From Pedobacter sp. MC2016-24 (GTDB lineage: Bacteria; Bacteroidota; Bacteroidia; Sphingobacteriales; Sphingobacteriaceae): a stretch of DNA of 64,000 nucleotides. Shown one piece after another: positions 15,742-61,344 of the stretch. The position numbers were made by a program, and so were the translations under genes. Under the pieces are notes generated by a model. It worked only from the letters and a program-made list of their open reading frames with translations. It did not search any database and was not told the origin of the DNA. The stretch's first letter is position 1. Each line of letters begins with the position of its first letter. Where the stretch lies: the NCBI RefSeq assembly GCF_015223055.1, contig NZ_JADFBX010000009.1, positions 124,001-188,000 on the forward strand. The letters are read 5' to 3'.

Positions 15742-15751
15742 TTTAATCATC

Positions 15752-17506: not shown

Positions 17507-17524
17507 ACCTTAATATTTAAATAC

Positions 17525-18949: not shown

Positions 18950-18971
18950 TAAGAAAACTAAAATATTTGTT

Positions 18972-20264: not shown

Positions 20265-20288
20265 AAGTTTATAAATTCTGCGTATTCG

Positions 20289-20328
20289 AATGTAGCCATC
20301 TGTTGTAAAACAGTATGGCTACATTTAT
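20289..20328 (+). terminator. Hairpin terminator after the susC-lyase operon
   Basis: AATGTAGCCAT (20289-20299) pairs with ATGGCTACATT (20315-20325); inside, CTGTT (20300-20304) pairs with AACAG (20309-20313) around a GTAA loop. Only a short T-rich tail follows, so the T-run is weak, but the stem is long and nearly perfect. Confidence 0.75.
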
Positions 20329-20370
20329 ATCCTATACATACTCCCATCTCATGATAAATAAACTATAGCA

Positions 20371-21387: not shown

Positions 21388-21411
21388 AGGATGAATAAAT
21401 TATTCGTTTTT

Positions 21412-21441
21412 TTGAGTATAACTTTCCAATTAAAGTGTCTT
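21412..21441 (+). promoter_or_regulatory. Shared bipartite promoter-like element, copy 5 (ROK/lyase operon)
   Basis: TTGAGTATAA at 21412-21421, 14 nt, TGTCTT at 21436-21441. It is in the 76-nt gap after the LacI gene, 22 nt before the ROK start. Confidence 0.65.
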
Positions 21442-21463
21442 AAAAGAAAATAAATAATTACAG

Positions 21464-22354: not shown

Positions 22355-22355
22355 C

Positions 22356-44027: not shown

Positions 44028-45227
44028 TTGGAAAATTCAAAATACATAACGGAGATTTACCAGAAATACCTCGATAATAAATGCGACAAGATGGAGTTGC
44101 AGGAATTGTTAGGCTATTTTGACGTTGACGAACTTGATGCTGGCCTTGTAGACATGGTAAAAAATGAGCTTTTGATTGCTGATGAAATATACGAGTCTCT
44201 GCCTCAGACCAAGCTGGTGTTAAATAGATTGGATAAATCTATCCATGATAATATACTGAGAAGTGAGCCTAAGCCGGTTCTGGTTAAATGGAGTTCTGTT
44301 TTTCATTATTGGTCCGCCGCCGCTCTGTTTTTAATTCTCTCATGTGGAATATATTTCTATACTTATCATTCTTCAAGCCGATCAGAAAGGGAAAATTCAA
44401 ATTATAAGAACGATGTGCCTGCGGGGTCAAGTAAAGCATATTTGACACTTGCTAATGGAAAGAGAATTGAACTGAACGGAGCCCTGAAAGGCGAGATTGC
44501 ACGTGAATCAAATGTATCCATTAGCAAAACACAAAATGGACATTTGCGCTACGAGATTTCTGATGCAGCAAGTAAAGGCGGTAGGCCGACTTATAATACG
44601 ATATCTACGCCAAAAGGAGGTAAGTATGAGATTATGCTTTCTGATGGGACATTAGTGTACTTAAATTCAGGGTCTTCTATTAGATTCCCTTCTAGTTTTG
44701 TGGGAGTTTCAGAACGTAGAGTAGAGTTTCAAGGCGAAGGTTATTTTGAGGTTTCTCATCGTGAAAAACAGCCTTTTTATGTACAAAGTGGTCAACAGTT
44801 ACTCAAAGTTTTAGGGACGCGCTTCAACCTGAACGCTTATGCGGATGAGAAGTCAATTAAAACTACGCTATTAGAGGGATCTGTTGAATTGGCTTACTCA
44901 TCCGGGGAAAAGGCAGTCCTGAAACCGGGTCAGCAGTCGCGCATTGAACGAGAAAAACTTATTGTCAAGTATGTCGATGCTGAGTCAGTGTTAGATTGGA
45001 AGCGGGGAGAAATTAATCTTAGGGATGATGACTTCCAGGCTACTATGAGAAAAATTGCCAGATGGTATGACGTAGATATTGTTTTTGCTGAAGATGCTCC
45101 TATCGATCTGGATCTTCGCGGCTTGGTCTCCAGGGAAAAAAACATCTCATCTGTTTTGAAAGTAATCGAACTGACTGGTAAAGTTCATTTTAAAGTGGAA
45201 GGAAGGAGGGTGACTGTGATGAAATAA
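44028..45227 (+). CDS. fecR: FecR-family anti-sigma factor (locus 3), TTG start
   Basis: A 399-residue inner-membrane anti-sigma factor. The TTG at 44028 is used because an in-frame TAA lies 12 nt upstream and the residues ENSKYITEIYQKYLDN fit the usual FecR N-terminus; the next ATG would delete 21 residues of it. A transmembrane helix occupies about 90-107 (SAAALFLILSCGIYFYT). The FecR domain carries YEIMLSDGTLVYLNSGSSIRFPSSF and GEGYFEVSHREKQPFYV; the C-terminal DUF4974-like domain contains ATMRKIARWYDVDIVF. It should relay the state of the STN-SusC gene next to it. Confidence 0.88.
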   Translation: MENSKYITEIYQKYLDNKCDKMELQELLGYFDVDELDAGLVDMVKNELLIADEIYESLPQTKLVLNRLDKSIHDNILRSEPKPVLVKWSSVFHYWSAAALFLILSCGIYFYTYHSSSRSERENSNYKNDVPAGSSKAYLTLANGKRIELNGALKGEIARESNVSISKTQNGHLRYEISDAASKGGRPTYNTISTPKGGKYEIMLSDGTLVYLNSGSSIRFPSSFVGVSERRVEFQGEGYFEVSHREKQPFYVQSGQQLLKVLGTRFNLNAYADEKSIKTTLLEGSVELAYSSGEKAVLKPGQQSRIEREKLIVKYVDAESVLDWKRGEINLRDDDFQATMRKIARWYDVDIVFAEDAPIDLDLRGLVSREKNISSVLKVIELTGKVHFKVEGRRVTVMK

Positions 45228-45345: not shown

Positions 45346-48300
45346 ATGTATAAATTTTATACCAGACGAACCGGTATGCATTCCGGTTGGCCCAATAAAT
45401 TTCTGCTGATTATGCGCATCACCACCGTATTATTAATCACTGCAATAATGCAGGTTAACGCAGCCTCTTACGGACAAAGGATTACCCTTAACCAAAATCA
45501 CGCTTCAATAGAACGTATTTTTCTGGAGATACGTAAGCAAAGTGGATATGACTTTGTGTTCGATAATAAAATGATGAAGAGAGCAAACCCGGTTAATATC
45601 CGGGTGAAAAATGCTTCTATAGAAGAGACGTTAAAACTCTGCTTTGAAAACCAGCCTTTTGAATATACGCTTGATGACAAAACTATTGTCGTTAAGGAAA
45701 AAGAAAAGTCAGTATTGAGCAGAATCAGTGAATTTTTTAGTAGAATAACCGTGGCAGGTAAGGTAGTCGATACGCAAGGTAGAATCCTTTCTGGTATTAC
45801 TGTTACTGTAAAAGGTACTGATAAGGTGACCCTTACGAACCTCACGGGCACATTTATCCTTGCAGAAGTTGACGAAGATGCTACACTGGTTTTTACAAGC
45901 GTGAGCAAGGAAACCTTAGAACTGAAGCTTAAGGGTAAACGGACCGTTGAGGTGATCCTCAAGGATAAAACGATGGAACTACAGGAAGTGGTCGTTAACA
46001 CAGGCTATCAGGTGCTTAAGAAGACTGATGTTGTAGGCTCAACAGCAACGATAAATGCAAAAGAGCTTTATCTTAACGGAGTAAATACGATCGAACAGGC
46101 TCTGCAGGGTAAACTAACAGGTGTAGTAGTGACTAATACCAGTGGACTAACAGGTACCAGGCAAACCGTGAGGGTAAGGGGAACTTCAACTTTGGCCGGT
46201 AACCAGGAACCTATTTGGGTAGTTGACGGAGTAATTCAAGAAGATCCACTTCCTTTCAAAGCACAGACACTGAATAATGTTGGGCAAATCAATTCCGATA
46301 ATTTTGATTTCATCAGAAATTTTGTTGGGAATTCAATCCGCTGGCTGAACCCAAATGATATCGAAGATATTACCGTTCTAAAAGACGCCTCTGCTACGGC
46401 TATTTATGGTATTAGGGCAGGAAATGGTGTGATCGTGATCACGACCAAAAAAGGGCAGGTGGGCCCCCCTGTTGTGAGTTATTCAACAAATTTAAGCACA
46501 ACAGAACGGGTAAATTATGATAGGTTAAACCTCATGAACTCCAAGGAGCGTGTTGCGGTGTCCAGGGAGATATTTGCCAGAGGGCTAACTGCACCTTTTG
46601 TCAATAGTACTATTGGGTATGCAGGTGCACTGAATGAATACCTATACAAAAAGACGATCTCGGCCGATGAGTTTAATGCCAGGGTTACAGCGATGGAAAC
46701 TGTGAATACAGATTGGTTTGACCTGCTGTTCAGAACGCCATTCAGTATGAGCCATAATCTCGGAATCTCTGGTGGAAATACAAATACAAGATATTACTCT
46801 TCCTTTGGTTATTCGGCGAACAATGGAACTGCAATAGGTAATGATACGCGTGGAATTACGGGTAATGTGTCAGTTAGTTCACAGCTATCAAAGAGAATAA
46901 ATATGAACCTGAGACTTTCTGGGGCACAGAATACGACAAATGGATTTTATATCATTAATCCTTATTCCTATACCACTAAGACGAACAGGGCTATTCCTGC
47001 ATACCAGGGTAATGGTGATCTAAATTATTATCTGAATAGCTCATCTTTTATGTTTAATTTCATTAATGAGCGTGATGAGACTGGAAACAAAAATAAGACG
47101 CTCTCTGCAAATGGAAGTATTGATGTCAATTACCAGGTTATAGAAGGACTTAGGTTACAAACCTTGTTCAGTTATAATGCAATTGCGACCAACGCAGAAG
47201 CTTATGCTACAGAAAGAACCGAATACATGACAAGGCTTCGCGGCTTTGAGTTAGGACTTAAACCTAATGATCCTTTATATATAGCTTCCAGAATACCTGT
47301 TGGTGGAGAATACAATGGCAGTTCAAGCAACAGTTCTACTTGGAACTGGAGAAATAGCCTTTCTTACAACAGGATTTTTGAAAAAAAGCACACCATAGCA
47401 CTGATGTTTGGTCATGAGATGAGCAGTGTTCGCTATGACGGATCACAATCTACTGTTTACGGATATTTGAGGGATAGGGGTAAATCTTTTGCTACACTTC
47501 CACTGACCTATGGTACTTCAAAGTTTGTAAACACACTACTAAATGTCATTCCTACAATCACTGACCGCAGATCGAATAATATGGGTCTCTACTTCACTTC
47601 AAGTTATTCTTATGACAATCGCTATGTGCTGAATATGAGTATACGGAATGATCGTTCTAATCGCTTTGGACAGTTTACCAATGAGAAATTCAATCCGGTT
47701 TGGGCTGGGGGATTGCGTTGGAATGTTGCTAATGAGGCTTGGTTCAACAGGAGCAACTGGTTAAATAACTTAAGTATGCGTGCCTCATTTGGATATCAGC
47801 GAAACATTGCAGCAAATGCAAGTCCTGACCTGATTATAAAAATTCCTACCGGATCTTCCTCTAATTCGACAGACCCGGTCACTGGTGATGCATTATTGGC
47901 AATTGGATCTCTTCCTTATGCTGATTTACGTTGGGAACAGAATGCAAGTTTAAATCTTGGAATCGACTGGAGTTTGTTCGAAAATAAAATTCATGTTTCA
48001 GTCGAATATTACAATAAACGTGGTAGACAGCTAATCACAACTTTAAACGTTCCTTTGGAATATGGAGTAACTTCGATGTTGGTTAATGGTGGATCTCTGA
48101 ACAACACCGGATATGAAGTGAGTGCTGGATTTGTACCAGTGAGGACCAAGAATTTCACTTGGTCTGTCAATTTAAACACCTCTAAGAACAACAATAAGGT
48201 GATTAAAGTAGGGCCTCAAGTGGTAAGCTGGCAAACAGCTGCCTCTGGTAATTTATATGTACAGGGAAAACCAGTGTCTGGTTTTTATGCTTTTCGGTCT

Positions 48301-48939
48301 GAAGGCGTTAATCCTACCAACGGAGAGCCTATTATCAATTTAGGTACAGAAGAAGGAGATGATTTAAAGAACCCAACTTCTTTTATGCAATATATGGGGA
48401 AATTGGATCCTGATTTTACCTCCGGATTGGGCTTGAACTTTAGATATAAAATGTTAAGCCTGAGTAGTTCATTTTATTTACAGGTAGGGGGAAAGAAATT
48501 TCTGGCACCTTTATACAATTATGAGGTTGGAAAAGCGGGCTTACCTACCGAGTATGAGAATTTATCGAGGTTGATTCTCGATCGCTGGACAGCGACCAAT
48601 ACTACATCAAATATACCGGCCTTACCGAATGGAAGGCTGCCAAATGTTACACTACCTAATGGAGACCCCACTAACAATAATCTATGGACATTGTACAACT
48701 ATAGTACCGCAAGGGTAGTTAGTGCATCAAGTTTGCGCTGTAATAATGTAAATCTCAGCTATTCTTTGCCAGCAAATGTTGTCAAGCGCCTAAAGTGTAA
48801 AAATATTCATTTGGGCGCTGGTGTTAGTAATCCTTTTTCCATAAATAGCTCCGGTTTTAGGGGGATAGATGCGGAAGTGGCTACAGGAGGGCAGCCAAGG
48901 ACCAGAACTTATACTTTTAATTTAAATCTAAGTTTATAA
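45346..48939 (+). CDS. susC: STN-domain SusC-family TonB-dependent transporter (locus 3)
   Basis: A 1197-residue outer-membrane transporter. Signal segment to SYGQ, then STN domain about 48-110 (RITLNQNHASIERIFLEIRK). A carboxypeptidase-regulatory-like domain follows (VAGKVVDTQGRILSGITVTV near 135), then a TonB-box-like VVNTGYQVLKKTDVVG near 215. The plug carries PIWVVDGVIQEDPLPF and DASATAIYGIRAGNGVIVITT. The barrel ends ...TYTFNLNLSL. It is co-transcribed with the SusD gene 8 nt downstream. Given the peptidases that follow, a peptide or protein-derived ligand is favoured over a glycan; that is inference. Confidence 0.92.
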   Translation: MYKFYTRRTGMHSGWPNKFLLIMRITTVLLITAIMQVNAASYGQRITLNQNHASIERIFLEIRKQSGYDFVFDNKMMKRANPVNIRVKNASIEETLKLCFENQPFEYTLDDKTIVVKEKEKSVLSRISEFFSRITVAGKVVDTQGRILSGITVTVKGTDKVTLTNLTGTFILAEVDEDATLVFTSVSKETLELKLKGKRTVEVILKDKTMELQEVVVNTGYQVLKKTDVVGSTATINAKELYLNGVNTIEQALQGKLTGVVVTNTSGLTGTRQTVRVRGTSTLAGNQEPIWVVDGVIQEDPLPFKAQTLNNVGQINSDNFDFIRNFVGNSIRWLNPNDIEDITVLKDASATAIYGIRAGNGVIVITTKKGQVGPPVVSYSTNLSTTERVNYDRLNLMNSKERVAVSREIFARGLTAPFVNSTIGYAGALNEYLYKKTISADEFNARVTAMETVNTDWFDLLFRTPFSMSHNLGISGGNTNTRYYSSFGYSANNGTAIGNDTRGITGNVSVSSQLSKRINMNLRLSGAQNTTNGFYIINPYSYTTKTNRAIPAYQGNGDLNYYLNSSSFMFNFINERDETGNKNKTLSANGSIDVNYQVIEGLRLQTLFSYNAIATNAEAYATERTEYMTRLRGFELGLKPNDPLYIASRIPVGGEYNGSSSNSSTWNWRNSLSYNRIFEKKHTIALMFGHEMSSVRYDGSQSTVYGYLRDRGKSFATLPLTYGTSKFVNTLLNVIPTITDRRSNNMGLYFTSSYSYDNRYVLNMSIRNDRSNRFGQFTNEKFNPVWAGGLRWNVANEAWFNRSNWLNNLSMRASFGYQRNIAANASPDLIIKIPTGSSSNSTDPVTGDALLAIGSLPYADLRWEQNASLNLGIDWSLFENKIHVSVEYYNKRGRQLITTLNVPLEYGVTSMLVNGGSLNNTGYEVSAGFVPVRTKNFTWSVNLNTSKNNNKVIKVGPQVVSWQTAASGNLYVQGKPVSGFYAFRSEGVNPTNGEPIINLGTEEGDDLKNPTSFMQYMGKLDPDFTSGLGLNFRYKMLSLSSSFYLQVGGKKFLAPLYNYEVGKAGLPTEYENLSRLILDRWTATNTTSNIPALPNGRLPNVTLPNGDPTNNNLWTLYNYSTARVVSASSLRCNNVNLSYSLPANVVKRLKCKNIHLGAGVSNPFSINSSGFRGIDAEVATGGQPRTRTYTFNLNLSL

Positions 48940-48947
48940 TACAAGAT

Positions 48948-50459
48948 ATGAAAAAGCTTTTTTTATATGGACTAATTGGAATGACCTTTTTTTTAGGGTC
49001 CTGCAAAAAATTCTTAGCGGAGTACAGTCAGGATGAAATGCGTCCGGGATCAACTGAGGACCTCACTGCACTCATGTACAGTGAAGCTTATCCTGCGAAA
49101 ACATCACTTGAAACATTTGATGTATTGACTGATGATGTGCAAAATAATCCACTTGTTTCCGTAAACGGCATGCCGATTCCGGCTTACCTTACCCTATTAC
49201 AGACTGGAACCGCAATGTATACCTTTGACAAAACTATGTTCGACCAGAACAATAAGCTGGCATCTGGAGCTGACAGCTATTCTGTACTCTATGTTAGAAT
49301 CAAGGGGTGTAATGTGATCATGGACTACATTGATAAAGTAAAAGGTACAGCGGTAGACAAGAAAGCCATATTGGGACAATGTCTATTGCTTCGTTCTTAC
49401 TACTATATGAAATTGATTACATTATATGGGGCAGCCTATAGTGCACCTGGAATAGACCCTGAGACCAGTTTAGGTGTGCCCCTGATTCTGGAAAGTCAGG
49501 TCAAAGATGGGGGAGTGTCCAGGAGTACTCTTAAGGAGGTATATGATCAGATTGAGAGAGACTTGATCAAGTCAGAGTTGTTGTTAAAGGACAATTATTC
49601 GCCATCCAGTCTATTCAGGGTGAGTAGTGATCTTGCAAATGCCTTACTGTGTCGTTTTTATCTATATAGGGGATTGGATAGTGACTGGGACAAGGTTATA
49701 CAGTATGCAAATTTATCATTGGAGAAAAGGTCTACGCTTACTGCTTTGACAACTTTTTTTAATTCAGCAGGTAATGTTAGTTCTTTTGGACTATATAATT
49801 CCGCCAGTCCTGAAATGATCTGGATTTCTACATCAACTTTCAATACTAGTATTTTTCCGATAACTACTGACTTAAGGTCCTTGCCACCTTATACCGTATC
49901 AAATGATCTTACTCAACTTTATGATAAAGGTACAGGGACAAGCAATTATGGTGACCTGCGTTACCTGAACTATTTTCAGTTTTCTATTTTTAACGGTAGT
50001 AGATATGCTTATGCCACAGCGAAGCAAACATTGAATTCTGGTTATGGTTCGAAGGGATTTAGGGTAGCTGAATTATACTTGAACCGTGCTGAAGCGCATA
50101 TCAGAAAATTGTTGAAATCCGGAAACGAATCGGATCGCCTAGCTGCACTTGAGGATTTGAATCGCTTGAGGCAAAGTAGGTACGATACAAGAAATACAGT
50201 TTATCTGCCCGTAAACATTATTGATGCTGCGCCACTTTATCAGTTTTACCAGCAGGAGCGTAGACGGGAGTTAGCTTTGGAAGATGGACACCGCTTTTTA
50301 GACCTCAAAAGATGGGGCTTAGGAGTCACTCACGTATATACTGGCCTCGATGATGTAAGTACAACTTTTGCACTTCCTGCGAATAGCCCACTTTATGCTT
50401 TGCCAATTCCATATACAGCTACACTGGCAAATTTGAGCATTGTACAAAACCCAAGGTAA
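48948..50459 (+). CDS. susD: SusD/RagB-family lipoprotein (locus 3)
   Basis: A 503-residue lipoprotein with the lipobox LGSC near residues 16-19. Family marks are LLLRSYYYMKLITLYGAAY near 146, LANALLCRFYLYRG near 229, AELYLNRAEAHIRKL near 370, RREXALEDGHRFLDLKRWGLG near 440, and a C-terminal YALPIPYTATLANLSIVQN. It should cap the SusC protein encoded 8 nt upstream. The ligand is not predictable. Confidence 0.9.
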   Translation: MKKLFLYGLIGMTFFLGSCKKFLAEYSQDEMRPGSTEDLTALMYSEAYPAKTSLETFDVLTDDVQNNPLVSVNGMPIPAYLTLLQTGTAMYTFDKTMFDQNNKLASGADSYSVLYVRIKGCNVIMDYIDKVKGTAVDKKAILGQCLLLRSYYYMKLITLYGAAYSAPGIDPETSLGVPLILESQVKDGGVSRSTLKEVYDQIERDLIKSELLLKDNYSPSSLFRVSSDLANALLCRFYLYRGLDSDWDKVIQYANLSLEKRSTLTALTTFFNSAGNVSSFGLYNSASPEMIWISTSTFNTSIFPITTDLRSLPPYTVSNDLTQLYDKGTGTSNYGDLRYLNYFQFSIFNGSRYAYATAKQTLNSGYGSKGFRVAELYLNRAEAHIRKLLKSGNESDRLAALEDLNRLRQSRYDTRNTVYLPVNIIDAAPLYQFYQQERRRELALEDGHRFLDLKRWGLGVTHVYTGLDDVSTTFALPANSPLYALPIPYTATLANLSIVQNPR

Positions 50460-50485: not shown

Positions 50486-51430
50486 ATGAAAGCACATATA
50501 CACATAATAGCCACAATTTGGTTAGCGCTCAGCTTGAATTCATGCAAGAAATCTGAAGGAGAATTGAGCCCCTCAGGTATTATAGATAATTACAGTGTAC
50601 CTCAAGGTAATAATACATACGACCAGACCATTGTAGGATATTACCAGAAATACGGCACTTACCTTTTGTATGAGTTTTCGGAAAAGGATGCCTACTGGAC
50701 GCCTACTGATTGGAAAAAGCCGCTACCTGGAGGTGCAGGTGGGTCTTGGAGTGCTGGTACTGAAGTAGCTGGCTCAAATCCGGAAAATATTCCTGCCCAA
50801 CTTGAGTTGTTAGATAAAAGCCTGTTTCAACATTATCCGAATGCTTTTCTGAAAACTTTTCTTCCGGTAAAAATCTTGTTATGCAGTAAAGTGGACTCTG
50901 TCTATAACACTTATGTATTCACACCTGTTTATACCGCAACAAAAGCTGTTAAAAAGGTTCCTGCACATTATAACTACGACAATATCGCAGTAAATTACGG
51001 TGATGCGACAATCTCAACCATGACTGCTGCAGAAAAGCTGGCCTTTTTGGCAAGGGTGAATCTGGTATTCATTCAGAGCATCATAAGCCGCGGACTTGTC
51101 AAACCAACCAGTGAGTTTATCAACAGCGCAGATTATATTACTGCTATGACTACACAGGCGCAAGCCTATGGTAAGGGAATTATCCTCAGTTATTCCTCTG
51201 TTAATGCTACCGCAGATTGGAATGCATATATCACTGCAATGGTGACTTATTCTGAGGCTGACCTGAACAAGACTGTTGTCATTACCAATACCTCGGCTGT
51301 TGGTATCCTTAATCCTACAAAGGATACGACTGGCTCTATCAAAAAACGCTATAGTATTGTACGAAACTATTTTATAGATAATTATCAGGTAGATCTGCAG
51401 AAGATAGGGAATGCGTCAAGAGGTCTGTAA
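50486..51430 (+). CDS. Metallohydrolase-like SusCD-associated lipoprotein lacking a zinc motif
   Basis: A 314-residue lipoprotein with lipobox LNSC near residue 20. Its layout (NYSVPQGNNTYDQTIVGYYQKYGTYLLYEF near 37-65, FLKTFLPVKILLC near 124) resembles the substrate-import-associated zinc metallohydrolase lipoproteins that often follow SusCD pairs. Where those proteins have HExxH, the segment here reads LVFIQSIISRGLVKP near 190-205, and the later Glu-rich region reads ILSYSSVNATADWNAYITAMVTY, so no zinc site is visible. I would expect binding without catalysis. Family assignment is from memory of layout and is moderate. It is 26 nt downstream of susD. Confidence 0.6.
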   Translation: MKAHIHIIATIWLALSLNSCKKSEGELSPSGIIDNYSVPQGNNTYDQTIVGYYQKYGTYLLYEFSEKDAYWTPTDWKKPLPGGAGGSWSAGTEVAGSNPENIPAQLELLDKSLFQHYPNAFLKTFLPVKILLCSKVDSVYNTYVFTPVYTATKAVKKVPAHYNYDNIAVNYGDATISTMTAAEKLAFLARVNLVFIQSIISRGLVKPTSEFINSADYITAMTTQAQAYGKGIILSYSSVNATADWNAYITAMVTYSEADLNKTVVITNTSAVGILNPTKDTTGSIKKRYSIVRNYFIDNYQVDLQKIGNASRGL

Positions 51431-51454: not shown

Positions 51455-53902
51455 ATGAAATTAAAATTAAGGATGTGTCTGGTCATGGCTATTTTCGCAA
51501 TGGCCCTAACCCTCAGGGCTCAGACAGATCGAAAGATCCAGGCTTTAGACAGTTATATTAAACCAACTGCAAAATCCCATAAGGGAATGTTTAATATTTA
51601 CGAACAGGATAATAAGTATTTGGTAGAGATTCCTGATCATTTGCTAAACAGGGACATTCTCACTAGTATCACTATCATTCGTGGTTCTGCGCAGCGTAAA
51701 CGTAACCCGGCAGATCGTTTTGGTTTTGCAGGAGATGCGGTCGGTGATCGAGTGATCCGGTTCAGAAAAGGGCAGGGTGCAAATATAGAATTGTTTGACC
51801 CAACTTTTGTACAGGCTTTTGATACCCTGAACATTTATCTGAATGTGCTCAAAAATACTTTGTTGCCAGCTTTGGTCTCTTTCGATATCCTGGCAAAGAG
51901 TAGTAATAGTTCGCTGATTGACATTACTGCCATGTTTAATTCAGATAGTGAACTGTTCTCGCTAAAAGTAGCGAAAGAGGACTTAAAGCTGGGTTCTTTT
52001 GACGCTCAAAAATCGAAGGTGCTTGGCGTAAATAGCTTTGACAATAATATTGTTTTTCGCTCAGTTAGAAGTTATACTGTGGGACAAGCTCCCACTCCTT
52101 CTGGCTTTCAGCCACCCGCTCTTACTGTGAAAAAAGAAGAACTAGCGCCAACCATCTGGGAGGTTGGTGCTTCCTGGTATTTACTCCCGGAACGGGCAAT
52201 GAAACCACGTTATGCAGATGCAAGGGTTGGTTATTTTACAACGGGTATAATGAACTACGATAAAAACCCTGAACAGGTAGAAATGCAGTCGATGGCTAAC
52301 CGGTGGCGTATTGAACCGAAGTCTGTAGATCTTGAAAGATATTTAAGGGGTGAGATCGTAGAACCTGAAAAACCAATTGTGTTTTATATTGATAGGGATA
52401 TGCCGAAATATTTAATTCCGTATGTGATTCAGGGCGTAAATGCATGGCAATCTGCTTTTGAGAAAATTGGTTTTAAAAATGCTATAGTCGGTAAGCTCGC
52501 ACCTACTTTATCTGAAAATCCGGAATACAGTATGGAAGATGCAAGGTATTCTTATATTTCCTATAAACCTTCGGAAATGGCAAATGCCTATGGTCCGCAG
52601 GTAGTTGACCCACGCTCAGGAGAGATTATTACTTCTCATATTGCGGTGTTTCACAGTATCCTGGAAATGCTGCAACGCTGGTATTTTTCCATGTGTGCGG
52701 TTAATGATCCAAAAGCCCGTAAAGCTAATTTTGATCAGGATCTGATCGGAAAGATGCTCAAGAATGTTATCACGCATGAGGTTGGGCATACATTGGGGCT
52801 GAGACATAATTTTATTGGTAGTTCGACCTATGCTTTGGACAGTATAAGAAGAGCAGACTTCGTCCGAAAAAACAGTTTCGGGCCGTCAGTAATGGATTAC
52901 ATGCGGTTTAATTATGTTGTTCAGCCGGGTGATGGTATTCCATCCGACCAGCTTTTACCCAGGATTGGCGTATATGATGATTATGCGATTGAATGGGGTT
53001 ATAAGTATCGTCCGAATTACAACGATTCATTTAAGGAGGCCGTGGATTTATCTGCTTGGGTAACTGGGAAAAGAAAGGATCCAAGATTTAACTATATCAA
53101 CGAAACGGATTTTTTTGACCCTCGTGTACAATCTGAAGATGTTGGAGACAATAGTATGAAAGCTTCTCGATTAGGTGTGGCAAACTTAAAGCTGACTATG
53201 TCAAATCTGGAGAAATGGGTAAAAGGTGATGATGATAATTATTTGGCATTGCGCTCCTTTTATCGTGCAGTAGAAGGACGTTATTACAACTACCTGGTAC
53301 ATGTGGTGAAAAATGTTGGTGGTGCTGAGATTGCTAATGCGCTGAGGTCTGAAAGCAAGTTCAACTACACACCATTAAGCAGAGAACAGCAAAAGGAAGC
53401 CATGGCTTACCTTAGCGAATATATGTTGACTGAACCCAAGTGGATGTATCCTGAAAGTATTAAAGCGAAAACAGGTTTTGATTTTGACACTGATGTTGAA
53501 AGGAGCTATTCTGACTTGATGGGACGTTTGTTGTCAAAGTACAGCCAGATCGTCCGCAATCAGCAGGTATCTTCACTTAATGCATACACCGTTAAGGAAT
53601 TCCTTACAGATTTAAGAATGGCTATATATGGACGGATAAAGAAAGGTGAAGCCATTTCTCAGTATGATCGCATGTTGCAACGAAATTTTGTAAATAAAAT
53701 ATTAGGACACGCGGGTAATAAAAATAACCTTGCTGCCGATGTCAGCCTGGAAATGAAACGTTGTATCGATGCGATCGAACAACAGGCACGTAAGGATGTG
53801 GAATTGCAGCAGGACTCTTTATCAAAAATGCATCTTACTGCGATTGCAGATATGATTAAGGTTTGGCGTACCGGAAAAAGATCCTCGTTACTTAATGAAT
53901 AA
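51455..53902 (+). CDS. Secreted zinc metalloprotease (zincin, DUF5117-like)
   Basis: An 815-residue protein with a signal peptide ending near LRAQ (residue 23). The N-terminal half is the DUF5118/DUF5117-type module. The catalytic site is HEVGHTLGLRH: His441, Glu442, His445 and His451 give the HExxHxxGxxH zinc motif, followed by a Met-turn candidate SVMDYMRFN near 480. A large C-terminal helical region extends to 815. It should degrade proteins or peptides in the periplasm or at the surface. The next gene is a homologue without this motif. The two genes overlap by 8 nt if the upstream ATG of the second is used. Confidence 0.88.
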   Translation: MKLKLRMCLVMAIFAMALTLRAQTDRKIQALDSYIKPTAKSHKGMFNIYEQDNKYLVEIPDHLLNRDILTSITIIRGSAQRKRNPADRFGFAGDAVGDRVIRFRKGQGANIELFDPTFVQAFDTLNIYLNVLKNTLLPALVSFDILAKSSNSSLIDITAMFNSDSELFSLKVAKEDLKLGSFDAQKSKVLGVNSFDNNIVFRSVRSYTVGQAPTPSGFQPPALTVKKEELAPTIWEVGASWYLLPERAMKPRYADARVGYFTTGIMNYDKNPEQVEMQSMANRWRIEPKSVDLERYLRGEIVEPEKPIVFYIDRDMPKYLIPYVIQGVNAWQSAFEKIGFKNAIVGKLAPTLSENPEYSMEDARYSYISYKPSEMANAYGPQVVDPRSGEIITSHIAVFHSILEMLQRWYFSMCAVNDPKARKANFDQDLIGKMLKNVITHEVGHTLGLRHNFIGSSTYALDSIRRADFVRKNSFGPSVMDYMRFNYVVQPGDGIPSDQLLPRIGVYDDYAIEWGYKYRPNYNDSFKEAVDLSAWVTGKRKDPRFNYINETDFFDPRVQSEDVGDNSMKASRLGVANLKLTMSNLEKWVKGDDDNYLALRSFYRAVEGRYYNYLVHVVKNVGGAEIANALRSESKFNYTPLSREQQKEAMAYLSEYMLTEPKWMYPESIKAKTGFDFDTDVERSYSDLMGRLLSKYSQIVRNQQVSSLNAYTVKEFLTDLRMAIYGRIKKGEAISQYDRMLQRNFVNKILGHAGNKNNLAADVSLEMKRCIDAIEQQARKDVELQQDSLSKMHLTAIADMIKVWRTGKRSSLLNE

Positions 53903-53924
53903 AATACTTATACCAATTAGAAGA

Positions 53925-56276
53925 ATGAAATTTATATTATATACATTATACTTTAGCTTTTTTTGCGCTGTAATACAGGGGAAAGCTGCTGATGAGCCCA
54001 AGGCATTTGATAAATTTTACAAGAACAGCATGAAAATTACTCCTGGTGTTTTTCCTGTATATCAGGATGGGGATAAGTACTACCTTGAGATTTCTGCCGC
54101 TTTGCTCCGTACGGATGTCCTGGTCGTTGGAGATATCTCCAAAGGCTATGCGAGTGCAGTTGCACAGTCATCAGGTGTCATACGCTTTGATAAGGGAAAC
54201 AATAATACGCTCAGTGTGACCAGGCAAAACTATAAGGAAGCTGTATCGACTGACTACAATCAGGAAATGGAAAGTCTAGTGCAGAAATCTAATCTGTTTC
54301 CGGTTAGTTTTGTGGTCAACATTGAGGCAATGGGTAAAATAGAGGGGAGTTACATTATTGATATGAGCAAGAATCTGCTTGAAAACGGGGATTTTTTCTC
54401 TTTCAAAGATTTTAATGCGCTGGCTAGACCTGATGCCAGTCGTTCTAAAGTACAGGAGGTCAAAGCTGCAAACAATGCTGTGGTTTTTACAGTACTACGT
54501 ACACAGACAGATCCCGGTAAACAGATGAATTCTGGAAAAACTATTGATAAGGCAAGCGCTTTTTTACTCAACCTGACTTTCCAGAAGTTATCATCTCAGC
54601 AGATGCTGTTAAGAGAAGCAGATCCAAGGATCGGATTCAGTACGATAGCATTTAATGATTTCGGTAAAAGTCCTTATAAAGTTAGAGAGGTAAAAGCCAT
54701 AAAAAAATGGAATCTGAGTGTTAAACCTAAAGATATGTCCAGGTATAAAAAGGGTAAGCTTGTGGATCCACAGGTCCCCATTACTGTCTATATAGATCGG
54801 ATTACTCCAGCTTTTTTTCTACCCTATATTGTCAACTCTGTCTCAGCCTGGAACAAAGTGTTTGAATCTGCCGGGTTCAAGAATGTATTGCAGATCGGCT
54901 CAGATGAACAGGAAAACTGGCTTTCTTCGGGGAAGATCCAGGTAAAATGGGGTAATGCGTATGATAAGATAGTCACTTCTATTATTGAAGATCCCCGAAG
55001 TGGAGAGATCATTACTGCAAAAATGAATGTGAGTAATCGTATAGCAGAAGGGCTTATGCCAAGTTATTTTGTTCAGGCTGGAATGAAAGATCCTAGGATA
55101 GTCAGCAATGTTAATGACCTTCACGTACAAGGAGAAATCTTGCAGTGGAAGGTGACCCAGGCTTTCGCTGGTTTGTTTGGTATGGAGCCTAATTTTTCCG
55201 GAAGTTCCGCATATAGTACTTCTGTATTGAGGTCATCCACTTCGCTCAAAAAGCAGGGAATGTCGTCTTCTATTACCGATGATCTGCCTTTTAATTATGT
55301 GGTACAGCCTGAAGACCAGGTGCCGGTGGTTGAAATGATACCTCGGATAGGAGAATATGATCGTCTGGCTATAAAATGGGCTTATCGCATTTTTGAAAGT
55401 AAAAATGAGGAAATAAAGTTTTTAACTAATTTATCAGTAGCCGATACGGCATTTCGTTTCCTTCCTGAAGGAAAAAATGATCCTCTAGCTCAACATGGAG
55501 ACTTGAGCTCAGAGCCGTTAAAGGCTTCGGCACTAGGTCTGAAAAACATCAGTAAATTGTATCCACAGTTGGAAAAAATTACCGGGATGATGCGCATGCC
55601 TGATGAAGACTGGAGTGTTTATGCCAGTTTATCGTCAGAGTTCTTGAAAACTTATGAGAATTACGTGAACCAGGTTGTTACGTTGGTCGGTGGTAGGTCG
55701 AAGTTGCCATTAATCAGGGGATATAATAGTATACCAAGCATTTACACGGTTAAAGCTCAACAGCAGGAGGCGTTGCAGTTTTTGAATCAGTATTTATTTA
55801 GTGGAGTTCCGGTTTGGATGAGTGATCCCCAATCTTCCAGATTGGGAAATGAATTGATTGATGTCAAGTTTCAAAGAATGGGGGAAAAAGTACTTCGTCA
55901 GTTGATGAGTCCTGAAGTAATCGGCAATCTGATCAGGGAGGAAAATACTGGAAGTCAAACAAGTTTTAAGGTTGCGGATCTGTTTTCGGCAATTGACCAT
56001 TATGTATTTAAGGATTTTGATGTAAATAAACCTTATAGCAACTACAGCTCTGTCTTGCAATCTAATTTTGTTTACAACCTAGCACAGATCGTCGCAAAGA
56101 ATTCAATTGTTTCGGGACTGAGTGAAGAGAATGTCGCATTGCATTTTTATTTCATGAGGGTACTGAAACACATCAACGAATTATCTGAGACTCACCGGGA
56201 CGAGTTAACCCGTGAACGCTACAAAATGATGAAAATGACAATTGATAGAGAATACTTGCAAAAATCTACACTTTAA
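53925..56276 (+). CDS. Zincin paralogue that lacks all zinc ligands (pseudoprotease)
   Basis: A 783-residue protein using the ATG at 53925, which gives a better signal peptide (to QGKA) than the in-frame ATG at 53895. It aligns with the preceding protease along its length: for example PITVYIDRITPAFFLPYIVNSVSAWNKVFESAGFKN resembles IVFYIDRDMPKYLIPYVIQGVNAWQSAFEKIGFKN, and SSAYS, FNYVVQPEDQVP match as well. At the zinc site HEVGHTLGLRH is replaced by QAFAGLFGMEP, so all three His and the Glu are lost, and the Met-turn is absent. It is most likely a non-catalytic partner or binding subunit of the active protease. Confidence 0.82.
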   Translation: MKFILYTLYFSFFCAVIQGKAADEPKAFDKFYKNSMKITPGVFPVYQDGDKYYLEISAALLRTDVLVVGDISKGYASAVAQSSGVIRFDKGNNNTLSVTRQNYKEAVSTDYNQEMESLVQKSNLFPVSFVVNIEAMGKIEGSYIIDMSKNLLENGDFFSFKDFNALARPDASRSKVQEVKAANNAVVFTVLRTQTDPGKQMNSGKTIDKASAFLLNLTFQKLSSQQMLLREADPRIGFSTIAFNDFGKSPYKVREVKAIKKWNLSVKPKDMSRYKKGKLVDPQVPITVYIDRITPAFFLPYIVNSVSAWNKVFESAGFKNVLQIGSDEQENWLSSGKIQVKWGNAYDKIVTSIIEDPRSGEIITAKMNVSNRIAEGLMPSYFVQAGMKDPRIVSNVNDLHVQGEILQWKVTQAFAGLFGMEPNFSGSSAYSTSVLRSSTSLKKQGMSSSITDDLPFNYVVQPEDQVPVVEMIPRIGEYDRLAIKWAYRIFESKNEEIKFLTNLSVADTAFRFLPEGKNDPLAQHGDLSSEPLKASALGLKNISKLYPQLEKITGMMRMPDEDWSVYASLSSEFLKTYENYVNQVVTLVGGRSKLPLIRGYNSIPSIYTVKAQQQEALQFLNQYLFSGVPVWMSDPQSSRLGNELIDVKFQRMGEKVLRQLMSPEVIGNLIREENTGSQTSFKVADLFSAIDHYVFKDFDVNKPYSNYSSVLQSNFVYNLAQIVAKNSIVSGLSEENVALHFYFMRVLKHINELSETHRDELTRERYKMMKMTIDREYLQKSTL

Positions 56277-56286
56277 TTTCAATTTA

Positions 56287-57402
56287 ATGAAAAAGATATT
56301 ATTGCCTTTACTATTGTTTACTTATTGCTTTGCAATGGCACAGAACAGAAAAATAAATTTTGATGCATTTTCTTTTAAGGAAGCGTTTGAGCGATCCAAA
56401 ATACAAGGAAAATTGGTTTTTGTGGACTGCTATACCGTATGGTGCGGACCTTGTAAACAAATGGAGGCCGGTGTTTTTAAAACTGACAGTGTTGCAGATT
56501 TTTTTAACAGTAATTTCATCAATCTAAAACTGGATATGGAAAAGGGAGAGGGACCAGCTGCACTCAAAACATATAATGTTGGTGCTTTTCCTTCCTACCT
56601 GTTGTTAGACAATTTGGGTAAAGTTGTGTATAAGTTTGTTGGCGGTATGAGTGCTGATAAATTTATGACACATATCAGAAAGGGCATGAAACCTGGAAAT
56701 GAGGTAGAGAAGATGAATGCCCGGTATACAGATGGCGAACGCGATCATGATTTTCTTCGGGAATATGTCTTGTTAAAAATCAGAATGTCTGAGCGGATTG
56801 AAGCAAAGCAGATTAATAATGAATTGATGACAATCATGACTCCCAAAGAACGCGCACTGCGCAAAAACTGGGTGCTTTTTGGTGAAAACAGGTATGCCAT
56901 GTACCTTTCTGATGTGGGGAGTCCGAATTTTAAATATCTTGTCGGGCATTGGAAGGATTTTCTGAAGGAAGTACCAAAGGACACTATTGATAAAAAGATG
57001 TCTGCTGTTTTGAGGAAAACATGTGGATGGACGATGAATGGCTTTTATTTTAAAGAATTCGAATATAAAAGGAGTGATTTTGAAGAATACAAAAAACAAA
57101 TCAAACTTACTGAGATGCCAGATAAGGAGCAGCTGCTGGTACTAATGGATGTAGCAATTGCGGCATCTGAGAAAAATCCAGAGTTGGTAACTGATTTGCT
57201 TGTGGCGAACATTGCCTCATTTTCTGAAGACAACAGGAGGATATTGTTTGAATATATATCTATGTGCAGTACAATTAAAGGGTACAATTACCCAAAAATT
57301 GTTTTGCTAGCCGATGAAGTCATCAAATCTTCATCTAATTCTTTCCTGATAAATACTTTCACCAAATACAAGATAAAATATGCCACTTCAAATGAAAATT
57401 AG
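56287..57402 (+). CDS. Secreted thioredoxin-fold protein
   Basis: A 371-residue protein; the ATG at 56287 gives a clear signal peptide (ending FAMAQ), preferred to an ATG at 56242 that lies inside the previous gene. The thioredoxin-like domain has VDCYTVWCGPCKQMEAGVF (active site WCGPC near 47-51) and a cis-Pro at GAFPSYLLL near 99. The C-terminal 220 residues are helical and without a recognised domain. It probably keeps substrates or the proteases of this locus reduced or isomerised. It begins 10 nt after the pseudoprotease gene. Confidence 0.82.
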   Translation: MKKILLPLLLFTYCFAMAQNRKINFDAFSFKEAFERSKIQGKLVFVDCYTVWCGPCKQMEAGVFKTDSVADFFNSNFINLKLDMEKGEGPAALKTYNVGAFPSYLLLDNLGKVVYKFVGGMSADKFMTHIRKGMKPGNEVEKMNARYTDGERDHDFLREYVLLKIRMSERIEAKQINNELMTIMTPKERALRKNWVLFGENRYAMYLSDVGSPNFKYLVGHWKDFLKEVPKDTIDKKMSAVLRKTCGWTMNGFYFKEFEYKRSDFEEYKKQIKLTEMPDKEQLLVLMDVAIAASEKNPELVTDLLVANIASFSEDNRRILFEYISMCSTIKGYNYPKIVLLADEVIKSSSNSFLINTFTKYKIKYATSNEN

Positions 57403-59593
57403 TCTGCTTTTTTGTTTTATATTGGCATCCCCATTGTTGTCAATTGCGCAGCACACTGATCTGACTTTAGCAGAAAAATATGGTCCAGATAATCTCCAAA
57501 AACAGGTAGGAACATTAAAGATAATTCCTTTCTTTTTAAAGGATAATTCAAAATTTTGGACAAACATAAATCAGGATTTATACCTTGTAGATGTCAAAAC
57601 AAAAACTAAAGAGTTGCTTTTCGATAAGCCATTGATTAAGAAAAATTTAGAAGATTTGACTAGGGGAGAAGTGAAGCCTGAGCAAATCAGTTACTCTACT
57701 GATTTCTCTAACAGGGAGGAGAATGTCAGGTTAAATTATAAAGGACATTCCTATGATTACAATTATTGGACTAAAAAAATTGTAAAAGCAAAATCTAAAC
57801 TAAAGTTTTCATCAGATAGCACCAAGGGAAAGAAGTCACCGGATAATAATTGGTTACTTTACGCGAGGAAGCACCAGTTGTACTTAAAGAGAATAGTTGA
57901 TGTTGAGGAACGGAAATTGTCGCAGGATGGAGAAGCTGGTTTTTCTTTTTCTATGAATGATACGGATAAGTATGCTGATGAAAATTCGTTAACAGACGCT
58001 GCATGGAGTGATAATTCTAGTCATTTTTATGTGTTGAGGCGTGACACAAGGAAGGTTGGAACGATGACAGTAAGTAACTCACTCACTCAGCCAAGACCGT
58101 ACGTAAATACTTATAAATATGAATTGCCTGGTGACAAAGATGTAGCTCAATATGATTTTTATGTGGGTGATACGAGCGCTACTCATTTGCTAAAAGTAGC
58201 TGTTGAACGATGGCCTGATCAGGAATTATCCATAGTCAAAGCAAGCGGACCTAGCGATAAAGTCTATTTACTACGCAAAAAGCGGAGCCGTGATGAAATG
58301 GATCTGTGCGTTGTGGACCTGAAAACCGGTAAACTGGCTGTTTTGATTCATGAAGTTAGCAAACCTTTTATCAATGACGATCTCTTTAATGTCTCTATCT
58401 TAAATCAGGGTAAGGACATCATTTGGTGGTCTGACAGGACTGGCTGGGGTCAGTACTATCATTACGATAAAAATGGTAAACTATTGAATGCAATAACTAA
58501 AGGAAACTGGACTGCTGGTCGCATCAATGCAATTGATACTGCGAAGGCTGAGGTTTATTTATATGGCTATGGGCGAGAGAGGGGGATCAATCCATACTAT
58601 GCAATGCTATATAAAGCAAGTTTGAATGGGAATTCGCTACGTCTGCTTACACCTGAAAATGCAACACATGCTGTATTTGTTTCACCGGATAGAAAATATG
58701 TGTTAGATAATTATTCCAGGATTGATCAGGGGCCTACTTCAGTGGTGAGGAGTAGTGAAGGTAAGTTTATCATGGAAGTCCTTAAGCCTTCAACTGATCG
58801 GCTTTACGCTTATGGCTGGAGGCATCCTGAGCCTTTTGTTGTGAAGGCGAAAGACGGGGTAACTGATTTGTATGGGTTGATGTGGAAACCATTTAACTTT
58901 GATCCGAATAAAAAATACCCGGTGATCTCACAAGTTTATCCTGGTCCGCAAATAGAAACAGTATGGACGGAATTTACAGTCCAGGATCGTTACAATAACA
59001 CTGCACTTGCACAATTGGGTTTTATAGTGGTTTGTATGGGGCATCGTGGCAACTCTCCGTTGAGAGACGCAGCCTACTATAAATATGGCTATGGTAACCT
59101 TAGGGATAATGCAATTGAAGACGATCGTTACGGGTTGGAACAGCTTGGTGAAGAGAATGAATTTATGGATTTGAGCAGGGTTGGGATTTTTGGCCATTCA
59201 GGAGGAGGGATGATGACGGTTGCCGCAATGGCCAAATACCCTGATTTTTATAAGGCTGGTGTTTCTTCGTCTGGCAATCATGACAATAGGATTTATAACC
59301 GAACTTGGGGCGAGAGTTACCAGGGTTTTAAAAAACCGCTGGATTTGAATCAAAATTTAGCTGATAAGATTAACGGTCCTTTGTTATTGGTGGCAGGTGA
59401 ATCTGATGCCAATGTAAACCCTGCGAATACCTTGAGGATGACGGATGCTTTAATCCTGGCAAACAAACAGTTTGATCTGCTGTTGCTTCCAGGACAAGGA
59501 CATACTTACGAGGGCGTCTATAAAAAATATTATGAAAATCGTATACGTGAGTTTTTTAGCCGCCATCTTTTGATCAGTAATACTGCAAATTAG
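57392..59593 (+). CDS. S9 (prolyl oligopeptidase/DPP-IV-like) serine peptidase
   Basis: A 733-residue secreted enzyme; the ATG at 57392 fits the signal peptide (to LSIAQ), and it overlaps the thioredoxin gene by 11 nt. The N-terminal half is a DPP-IV-like beta-propeller. The catalytic alpha/beta-hydrolase half shows KKYPVISQVYPGPQ near 510, GIFGHSGGGMM (nucleophile Ser603), AGESDANVNP (Asp) near 666 and LLPGQGHTYEG (His) near 698. It should release dipeptides from N-termini or cleave short peptides. It supports a peptide-use function for locus 3. Confidence 0.88.
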   Translation: MKISLLFCFILASPLLSIAQHTDLTLAEKYGPDNLQKQVGTLKIIPFFLKDNSKFWTNINQDLYLVDVKTKTKELLFDKPLIKKNLEDLTRGEVKPEQISYSTDFSNREENVRLNYKGHSYDYNYWTKKIVKAKSKLKFSSDSTKGKKSPDNNWLLYARKHQLYLKRIVDVEERKLSQDGEAGFSFSMNDTDKYADENSLTDAAWSDNSSHFYVLRRDTRKVGTMTVSNSLTQPRPYVNTYKYELPGDKDVAQYDFYVGDTSATHLLKVAVERWPDQELSIVKASGPSDKVYLLRKKRSRDEMDLCVVDLKTGKLAVLIHEVSKPFINDDLFNVSILNQGKDIIWWSDRTGWGQYYHYDKNGKLLNAITKGNWTAGRINAIDTAKAEVYLYGYGRERGINPYYAMLYKASLNGNSLRLLTPENATHAVFVSPDRKYVLDNYSRIDQGPTSVVRSSEGKFIMEVLKPSTDRLYAYGWRHPEPFVVKAKDGVTDLYGLMWKPFNFDPNKKYPVISQVYPGPQIETVWTEFTVQDRYNNTALAQLGFIVVCMGHRGNSPLRDAAYYKYGYGNLRDNAIEDDRYGLEQLGEENEFMDLSRVGIFGHSGGGMMTVAAMAKYPDFYKAGVSSSGNHDNRIYNRTWGESYQGFKKPLDLNQNLADKINGPLLLVAGESDANVNPANTLRMTDALILANKQFDLLLLPGQGHTYEGVYKKYYENRIREFFSRHLLISNTAN

Positions 59594-59709: not shown

Positions 59710-61344
59710 ATGAAAAAAATACTAGTATTCTTTATGTTAATGACCTGTATGAAAGCCCATGCTGGGAAGATAGTCTGGCAGTGGTCAGTTCCAGTGGGCA
59801 AATCTGGCGATAGTCAGTCAAGGGCATGGTTGTGGATCCCGCCGGATTGCAAGGCTGTAAAGGCTGTTATTTTTGCGCAGCAGAATATGGAGGAGCAGTC
59901 GATTCTGGAAAATCCAAAATTTAGGAAGGAGATGGGCAAGCTTGGTATTGCAGAGGTATGGGTAAGTCCGGGATATGATTTGGTGTTCGACTTTTCCAAA
60001 GGATCAGGAGACTTATTTTCGGAAATCATGAGCAATCTTTCAATGGTATCAGGTTATCAGGAGCTTAGTTTTGTTCCATTCATAGGACTTGGACATTCCT
60101 GGGCAGCGAGTGCGCCATATGCAATGGCAGCATGGAGTCCCGAACGTGCGCTAGCTTGTATTTCTGTTAGTGGACAATGGCCCTATATCTGGGGTGCGTT
60201 TGCTCCTGATATATGGGGCGATCGAAATATTGATTTCATTCCATCAATCGTCACCATGGGAGAATATGAGGGAGCGCTTAATTTCGCCAATGAAGGACTC
60301 AGGCAGCGAAGCGCGAATCAATTCTTACCGCTTAGTATGCTAACAGGACCTGCTCAAGGGCATTTCAATGCTGCTCAGGAGAAAATTGACTTTCTTTCTT
60401 TTTACATTAAAAAAGTACTACACTTCCGCCTTCCAAAACATAGTGCTGCGGGAAAACAACCTAAATTGATTCCTATAGATCCTACAAAGACCGGATGGTT
60501 AGCTGAGAGATGGATGGGCGATTATAATGTCTCAAGTCCGGCAGCACCGGTGGATGATTATACGGGGAATAAACAGGAAGCATTTTGGTATTTTGATCAG
60601 GAAACTGTTCGTATGGTAGAGAAATATCAGGCAAGGCATAAGGGCAAGAAACATCAATTGATCGGTTTTACTCAAGATGATAAATTTGCTGAACAAAGAT
60701 CTACTCACCAACAGTTTGACTTAGTCTTTAATCCATTACCGGATGGCGTTACTTTTAAGTTACAGGCTAAGTTTTATGATACAGTACCTGGAGGAAGCCC
60801 TAGGCCCGCCAATTGGACTGGACTAGCTGCCGGAAGTCATGTTGGTCATGTGCAAGGCGTGAAAACTATTTCAATAGATCCGATCGCAGGTCCAGTTAAA
60901 AAGATTAATGATTCAATATTCAGTGTACATCCCCAATTGGGATATCCACTGTTGCCAAGAAGTTATGAAGCATGGTTTGTCGCTACTGATCTTGGGGACC
61001 GCTTTTACCGTCCTGCAGTACAGCAGGCGAAAATGAATATTCCTGTCAGAAACTTAAAAGGTCGTGTGCAAAATATAATTTTTAAGCCCTTAGTGGAGCT
61101 TACAAATCCAAAATCATTTGTACTGAAGGCCGTATCTGATGCAGGATTACCAGTAGGATTTTATGTGCTCGAAGGTCCTGCTGTAATTGTCGATGGGATA
61201 CTAAAGCTCTGTAAAGTTCCTCCGTCAGCAAAATTTCCTGTTAAGATAACCGTTGTAGCCTATCAGTATGGAAGTAATTCTGAACCATTTGTTCAGACTG
61301 CTGAAGAGGTTAAGCAAGTTTATTGGCTGCAAAATAACAGATAA
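59710..61344 (+). CDS. Secreted alpha/beta-hydrolase (esterase-like), satellite paralogue
   Basis: A 544-residue secreted protein, the paralogue of the gene at 10764-12398 and equal in length. Shared segments include IVWQWS near the N-terminus, AWLWIPPDCK, ENPKFRKEMGKLGIAEVWVSP, LGHSWAAS (Ser130), VTMGEYEG near 182, GHFNAAQEKIDF (His218) and a C-terminal KVPPSAKFPVKITVVAYQYGS. The signal peptide ends near KAHAG. Function is unknown; an esterase acting on the PUL substrate is possible. It has its own copy of the shared promoter-like element and follows, but is not part of, the peptidase operon. Confidence 0.65.
   Translation: MKKILVFFMLMTCMKAHAGKIVWQWSVPVGKSGDSQSRAWLWIPPDCKAVKAVIFAQQNMEEQSILENPKFRKEMGKLGIAEVWVSPGYDLVFDFSKGSGDLFSEIMSNLSMVSGYQELSFVPFIGLGHSWAASAPYAMAAWSPERALACISVSGQWPYIWGAFAPDIWGDRNIDFIPSIVTMGEYEGALNFANEGLRQRSANQFLPLSMLTGPAQGHFNAAQEKIDFLSFYIKKVLHFRLPKHSAAGKQPKLIPIDPTKTGWLAERWMGDYNVSSPAAPVDDYTGNKQEAFWYFDQETVRMVEKYQARHKGKKHQLIGFTQDDKFAEQRSTHQQFDLVFNPLPDGVTFKLQAKFYDTVPGGSPRPANWTGLAAGSHVGHVQGVKTISIDPIAGPVKKINDSIFSVHPQLGYPLLPRSYEAWFVATDLGDRFYRPAVQQAKMNIPVRNLKGRVQNIIFKPLVELTNPKSFVLKAVSDAGLPVGFYVLEGPAVIVDGILKLCKVPPSAKFPVKITVVAYQYGSNSEPFVQTAEEVKQVYWLQNNR

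Follow-up and report, generated by a model that had tools for sequence, protein, structure and literature searches.

A zinc-less paralogue is inherited and exchanged with a metzincin-like protease in a SusC-SusD cassette of Pedobacter

Results

A metzincin-like protease and its zinc-less paralogue are encoded side by side

Within a 64,000-nucleotide stretch of the genome of Pedobacter sp. MC2016-24 (the window), two plus-strand genes encode related proteins that we denote ACT (51455–53902) and DEAD (53895–56276), using the same names for the clades to which they belong. Both frames are open, at 815 and 793 residues, and both products exceed the curated Pfam cut-offs for DUF5118, DUF5117 and DUF4953 (the last as PF16313, with PF17148 and PF17162). 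The two proteins are 28% identical over 779 columns by BLASTP (E = 3e-81) and, with three domains in common, the second is the alignable paralogue with an intact frame that the first-pass annotation took it to be. ACT is a metzincin-like protease with the zinc-binding segment HEVGHTLGLRH and is predicted to be active. Alignment places QAFAGLFGMEP of DEAD opposite this segment, with H441, E442, H445 and H451 of ACT replaced by Q, A, G and P, and SITDDLPFNY opposite the ACT Met-turn SVMDYMRFNY, with M480 replaced by T. The earlier description of a protein that has lost all four zinc-site residues together with the Met-turn methionine is thereby confirmed.

The methionine at residue 11 of the DEAD frame (window position 53925) is invariant in 14 aligned homologues and is probably the true start, in which case the 8-base overlap between the two genes would vanish. 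Ten DUF4953 proteins are encoded in the source genome, eight with HExxH and two without; the two zinc-less ones are DEAD itself and a protein on contig C3, where the entire cassette occurs a second time. The recurrence of a zinc-less DUF4953 protein in a second whole cassette points to more than chance.

The metzincin-like fold is predicted to be retained

AlphaFold2 models of full-length DEAD (38 rows) and ACT (31 rows) have mean predicted local distance difference test scores of 85.7 and 85.5, respectively, each with a predicted template modelling score of 0.85. VIA-align matches residues 245–517 of the DEAD model to EcxA (Z = 10.2; 193 residues, 3.8 Å) and residues 246–501 to karilysin (Z = 9.8; 147 residues, 3.3 Å), and matches residues 258–520 of the ACT model to karilysin (Z = 9.3) and MMP-3 (Z = 9.2); these Z values are moderate and are computed on predicted models, and unrelated helical chains reach 8.6 in the same list. 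A plain Foldseek search of the DEAD model against the PDB gave no match at E ≤ 0.001, and a profile of the ACT family searched against PDB sequences gave a best E of 0.021. From the structural matches, DEAD is predicted to keep a metzincin-like fold over residues 245–517, as had been suggested from the window alone.

The pair has the same gene order at every locus

Pedobacter is mainly known as an environmental genus. We find at least 16 ACT-DEAD loci, two in the source genome, 12 in other Pedobacter genomes and two in a related genus; all survey counts are lower bounds, since at most 7 candidates per genome were scored for DEAD and 6 for ACT in the genus, 2 in each of the family, order and class samples, and 15 for Mx1-like proteins. 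The order SusC-SusD-Mx1-like-ACT-DEAD-TRX-S9 (TRX, thioredoxin-like protein; S9, peptidase) is found at 16 of 16 loci, so that the ACT-DEAD gene order, which the first-pass annotation had proposed to look for in other Pedobacter genomes, is the same in every locus found. A protein search of 145 genomes of the genus recovers at least 14 DEAD-clade members in 13 genomes, the window protein included. The other 13 are 40–52% identical to the window protein, with no further listed match above 32%, and the clade scores at least 616 bits, with the next protein at 314. A profile search with ACT in the same 145 genomes likewise gives at least 14 clade members at 1428 bits or more (next, 745), and the places of the two clades neighbour each other one to one.

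Beyond the genus, a sample of 399 genomes of the family adds two genomes with the clade, both of another genus (G244 and G326). Clade members score at least 1115 bits in a sample of 400 genomes of the order, where the next protein reaches 458, and among the candidates scored in 395 genomes of the class no clade member was seen outside Pedobacter. Scanning genome contigs with DEAD as a single protein gave no matches; an alignment-based scan gave seven loci, six with DEAD homologues and one with a distant DUF4953 protein (L108).

Among 65 distinct full-length DUF4953 proteins, the motif HExxHxxGxx[HD] occurs in every one of the 16 ACT proteins, in none of the 16 DEAD proteins and in all 33 others (each with more than 700 residues, more than 500 of them aligned), the last coming from loci chosen by similarity rather than at random. 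The Met-turn methionine is likewise present in 16/16 ACT and 0/16 DEAD proteins. Apparent internal stops in some ACT and DEAD matches were rejected, as they lie at gene ends or just before starts and the reading frames are open. The DEAD gene at L054:6427–8748 lacks 17 residues that the other 13 alignment rows retain, and its frame is open.

Purifying selection and a re-specialised site

The ratio of nonsynonymous to synonymous substitution rates (dN/dS), computed by the NG86 method with our own script, is 0.071, 0.177, 0.059 and 0.088 for DEAD in four pairs of loci, and 0.077, 0.161, 0.042 and 0.055 for ACT in the same pairs, with dS near 1 in the last. Low dN/dS and open frames at 16/16 loci speak against gene decay in relatives, one of two findings that would have counted against a retained function for DEAD.

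The positions of the former H, E and H are variable in DEAD (Q/K/T, A/G/S and E/G/Q/L/A/T, respectively), and other residues at the site have become fixed: H395 of ACT is K376 in 16/16 DEAD proteins, H451 is P432 in 15/16 and M480 is T461 in 15/16. DEAD also retains the equivalents of ACT G448 and D481 (16/16), has D462 in 16/16 and carries, before the site, a DPR..EI motif whose D366, P367, R368, E371 and I372 are invariant in 14/14 rows. Of 20 fixed differences between the proteins (ACT 16/16, DEAD at least 15/16), eight fall within ACT residues 385–485 (101 columns), a clustering at the site with P = 0.0025 against all 756 columns. The other finding that would have told against the proposal, a different intact metal site, did not appear: the invariant His, Cys, Asp and Glu residues across 16 loci include no His/Cys cluster. 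No Cys of DEAD is invariant and only one His is, at position 767 close to the C terminus, which leaves no visible substitute for the zinc site.

The DEAD site is thus re-specialised rather than merely eroded. Open frames beside ACT at every locus, low dN/dS and new residues fixed at the site make it well supported, on sequence evidence, that selection maintains DEAD for a non-catalytic role, as the first-pass annotation had suggested.

ACT and DEAD are co-inherited and exchanged as one block

In a midpoint-rooted tree, ACT and DEAD form one clade each and group together with 98% support in the Shimodaira–Hasegawa-like approximate likelihood ratio test, with a warning from the program of long branches. 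ACT and DEAD each come in two main types, and none of the 16 loci combines one type of ACT with the other type of DEAD. Tree distances over these loci, in trees that include a shortened S9 gene (L011) and a broken Mx1-like gene (L060), correlate at 0.99 between ACT and DEAD, with 11 of 13 splits shared; the values are 0.82–0.89 within SusC/SusD/Mx1, 0.84 for TRX-S9 and 0.32–0.67 between modules.

We then find the same pattern in a dereplicated set of 13 loci, obtained by dropping one member of each near-identical pair and assessed with 2000 Mantel permutations. ACT-DEAD stands at 0.98 (no permutation as high), TRX-S9 at 0.57 (0/2000) and DEAD-SusC at 0.27, and the pairs formed with the immediate neighbours are low, at 0.14 for Mx1-ACT (269/2000) and 0.35 for DEAD-TRX (22/2000). 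Since ACT and DEAD correlate so poorly with the genes that flank them, adjacency alone is insufficient to account for the ACT-DEAD value.

Two natural swaps carry the same message. Loci L054 and L057 are 85% identical in DNA up to the end of Mx1, and similarity resumes, at 78%, roughly 120 bases inside TRX; in the interval only a 706-base piece within ACT aligns, at 68%, and the proteins are 50% (ACT) and 38% (DEAD) identical. The reverse is seen between L057 and L058, where SusC-SusD-Mx1 proteins are 54–66% identical and ACT-DEAD-TRX-S9 proteins 89–93%, with the changeover inside the last part of Mx1. ACT and DEAD are therefore exchanged as one block, and block exchange together with co-inheritance would favour a shared complex or pathway for the two proteins.

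The surrounding cassette

From SusC to S9 the genes lie on one strand, separated by short gaps or overlapping. A SusC-type TonB-dependent outer-membrane transporter with STN, CarbopepD_reg_2 and Plug domains (45346–48939), which has a counterpart in the other 15 loci, adjoins a SusD-type lipoprotein lid (48948–50459; Pfam SusD-like_3 and SusD_RagB), and degradative enzymes follow, the composition expected of a SusCD-type import cassette. Upstream of ACT lies a zinc-less Peptidase_Mx1-like lipoprotein gene (pseudo-Mx1; 50486–51430). Downstream of DEAD are the thioredoxin-like protein (56287–57402; Pfam thioredoxins, motif WCGPC), putatively exported, as signal peptides were judged by eye, and a prolyl-oligopeptidase/DPP-IV-like S9 peptidase (57380–59593; DPPIV_N and Peptidase_S9). 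The motifs WC[GIV]PC in TRX and GHSGG in S9 are each present at 16/16 loci. A FecR-type anti-sigma factor (44028–45227; FecR, FecR_C) precedes SusC on the plus strand, and a divergent extracytoplasmic function (ECF) sigma factor on the minus strand (43276–43875; Sigma70_r2 and Sigma70_r4_2, E = 6e-13 to 7e-13) is the probable regulator of the cassette.

Two further features of the window lie outside the cassette. A 544-residue protein follows it (59710–61344), without a Pfam match, and no gene corresponds to it in the flanking sequence covered at the remaining 15 loci. A separate SusC-SusD locus at 12529–25094 includes a DUF4979/Big_2 protein, a LacI-type regulator, a ROK protein and a heparinase-like protein below the Pfam cut-off, and is perhaps for a polysaccharide.

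Other cassettes with lost catalytic residues

The Mx1-like product of 50486–51430 scores 30.1 bits against PF15890 (cut-off 25.6) and 33.3 against NCBIfam TIGR04549 (cut-off 75); lacking HExxH and falling below the family cut-off, it does not qualify as a Peptidase_Mx1/TIGR04549 zinc metallohydrolase. Aligned by hhalign, 15 zinc-less Mx1 rows (L060 omitted) match three HExxH-bearing Mx1 lipoproteins of the source genome with a probability of 96%, and this alignment shows the HExxH positions to be lost; no HExxH is present in any of the 16 copies as read. Cys20 of the Mx1-like lipoprotein is invariant in 14/14 rows. The source genome has seven Mx1 matches, four with HExxH and three without. This zinc-less protein is co-inherited with SusC and SusD rather than with ACT and DEAD, and we take it most plausibly to be a component of the outer-membrane port. 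At L060:7461–8207 the Mx1-like gene is broken, by sequencing error or as a pseudogene, and the adjoining ACT and DEAD frames are open.

A profile of the zinc-less Mx1 finds at least 29 further Mx1-like places in the genus. Among 18 neighbourhoods examined of the 29 listed, HExxH is present in none of 17 clean Mx1 proteins, a homologue of S8 subtilases is a neighbour in 16, and aspartyl-protease-like and thioredoxin-like genes are frequent, as identified by comparison and, for L146 and L163, by Pfam family. Five subtilases from three genomes (L146:11369–13105, L147:10166–11881, L148:4833–6557, L149:9036–10772 and L150:11278–13005), encoded in SusC-SusD-zinc-less-Mx1 loci with aspartyl-protease-like genes nearby, have lost the catalytic triad, with Asp replaced by G, His by S or Y and, by the alignment, Ser by L, M or G. 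The two that were tested match Pfam S8 at E = 7e-26 and 3e-25. The five lie together on one side of a branch, and the triad is intact in the remaining 12 S8 proteins. With the zinc-less Mx1, DEAD and the triad-less subtilases, three unrelated protease folds thus have members that lack catalytic residues in cassettes of one kind.

Another such locus lies on contig C3 of the source genome (L163:2182–14380) and comprises SusC, SusD, a zinc-less Mx1, two tandem subtilases, an aspartyl-protease/PDZ protein and a thioredoxin-like protein. We rejected the tandem subtilases as a second active/dead pair because both keep Asp, His and Ser. We also set aside what looked like a SusD-Mx1 fusion in L151, since it spans a stretch of N.

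Discussion

That the zinc-less copy is inherited and exchanged together with the live protease suggests that it has a job to do for that protease. The explanation we favour, with a probability of about 0.6, is that ACT and DEAD form a two-subunit protease in a peptide-import cassette, with DEAD as its dedicated non-catalytic subunit. SusC, SusD and the zinc-less Mx1 lipoprotein would make up a port by which a proteinaceous substrate crosses the outer membrane, and ACT, the DUF4953 metzincin, would cut this substrate in the periplasm. DEAD would pair with ACT, its retained and re-specialised cleft binding, positioning or screening the substrate; the thioredoxin would reduce disulphides, and the S9 peptidase would trim the fragments. 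The physical heterodimer, binding in the cleft, the periplasmic location, the peptide substrate and the roles of the neighbours are all what we infer. Binding or positioning of substrate is favoured over a mere scaffold because the site is re-specialised and not just eroded, and a peptide substrate is suggested by the gene content together with the peptide uptake of the RagAB transporter described in PMC11817032.

Several results weigh against a dedicated two-subunit enzyme. The correlations of ACT and DEAD with S9 in the 13 loci, 0.62 and 0.60, are moderate, and neighbouring genes that recombination has not split correlate without any contact between their products. In the source genome, no dead partner adjoins six of the eight DUF4953 proteins that carry HExxH, which means that the fold is not generally in need of one. 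Fixed differences cluster only weakly at the site (P = 0.089) once the count is restricted to positions that both proteins conserve, and conservation of the catalytic domain is lower in DEAD (0.61–0.70) than in ACT (0.79–0.86) in 50-residue blocks over DEAD residues 301–550.

A free-standing periplasmic binding protein or chaperone that captures imported substrate and passes it to ACT without a stable complex would also keep the metzincin-like fold and the invariant residues of the DPR..EI motif, and a general capture role would account for the presence, in cassettes of this kind, of pseudo-proteases with other, unrelated folds. The near-identical ACT and DEAD trees and the block exchange nonetheless point to ACT, not to the transporter, as the partner of DEAD, and we regard this alternative as unlikely, if the most serious competitor. 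Adjacent genes on the same strand would equally suit an inhibitor or cap that silences ACT until substrate arrives, and pseudo-proteases are able to regulate active relatives, as set out in PMC11266112; the majority of HExxH-bearing relatives in the source genome do without such a neighbour, however, and a regulatory DEAD seems improbable to us.

It is more doubtful still that DEAD is catalytic by another route, through an alternative metal site or as a hydrolase of some other kind. Polar residues are indeed fixed at the site (K376, T461 and D462), but the old H, E and H positions vary, the last ligand is Pro in 15/16, and the lone invariant His lies far along the chain, near the C terminus. 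Least credible is a leftover duplicate heading for loss: DEAD evolves faster than ACT by identities and branch lengths, yet its frame is open at all 16 loci, even where types share as little as 36% identity, its dN/dS is well below 1 and it has invariant motifs of its own.

Bacterial pseudo-proteases are rarely found in a setting that hints at their purpose. Here the live and dead versions sit in an operon-like cassette, present twice in the source genome, and natural swaps mark the pair as a unit, so that a dead metalloprotease as subunit, capture device or inhibitor becomes directly testable. We also put forward, tentatively and at less than even odds, a broader proposal: that non-catalytic proteases underlie a family of modular cassettes by which the Sphingobacteriaceae import peptides. 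In these, a zinc-less Mx1 would belong to the SusCD port, and exchangeable protease modules would use DUF4953 metzincins or S8 subtilases as substrate-handling subunits beside motif-intact proteases. ACT-DEAD would then be, as far as the literature searched shows, the first bacterial case of an obligate metzincin heterodimer with one active and one inactive subunit. If true, the loss of catalytic residues in three unrelated folds would suggest a general way of building protein-import systems.

In open-licence PubMed Central literature we found no paper on DUF5117/DUF4953 or on Peptidase_Mx1/TIGR04549, and, for the combined topics, none on the ACT-DEAD system among the matches listed, by their titles and the openings of their abstracts. 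By profile, ACT and DEAD are both three-domain members of the Pfam DUF4953/DUF5117/DUF5118 'Met-zincin' family, from whose other members DEAD differs in lacking HExxHxxGxxH, kept by 33/33 of those examined, and hence in not qualifying as an active peptidase. Another zincin family with substituted catalytic sites is described in PMC3650047. The cassette shares its SusC-SusD core with RagAB and with the utilisomes, where additional lipoproteins and degradative enzymes from one locus join that core (PMC7618045); the ACT-DEAD cassette differs from both in its zinc-less Mx1 lipoprotein and its protease/pseudoprotease pair, and the zinc-less Mx1 is best read as comparable to the extra utilisome lipoproteins.

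The closest parallels are active/inactive metalloprotease pairs. In the alpha and beta subunits of the mitochondrial processing peptidase (MPP) and in bacterial two-gene M16B pairs, the inactive subunit is essential and aids substrate binding (PMC11266112); these too are pairs of paralogues of which a single member has the zinc motif, but they have the M16 HxxEH clamshell and no SusCD cassette, and the pairing is proven there and inferred here. TldE is a paralogue of TldD without the metal motif, activity needs both, and one of the copies is assumed by the authors to have lost its centre (PMC5810440); the loss from one paralogue is shared with ACT-DEAD, whereas the TldD/TldE fold is unrelated, its motif is HExxxH and it matures microcin B17. 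A paralogous pair encoded together with the metal site lost in one member, the arrangement that marks heterodimeric metalloproteases, is what we find at 16/16 loci. By this analogy, DEAD most likely stands to ACT as MPP-alpha stands to MPP-beta or TldE to TldD, a known kind of pair in a new fold and setting.
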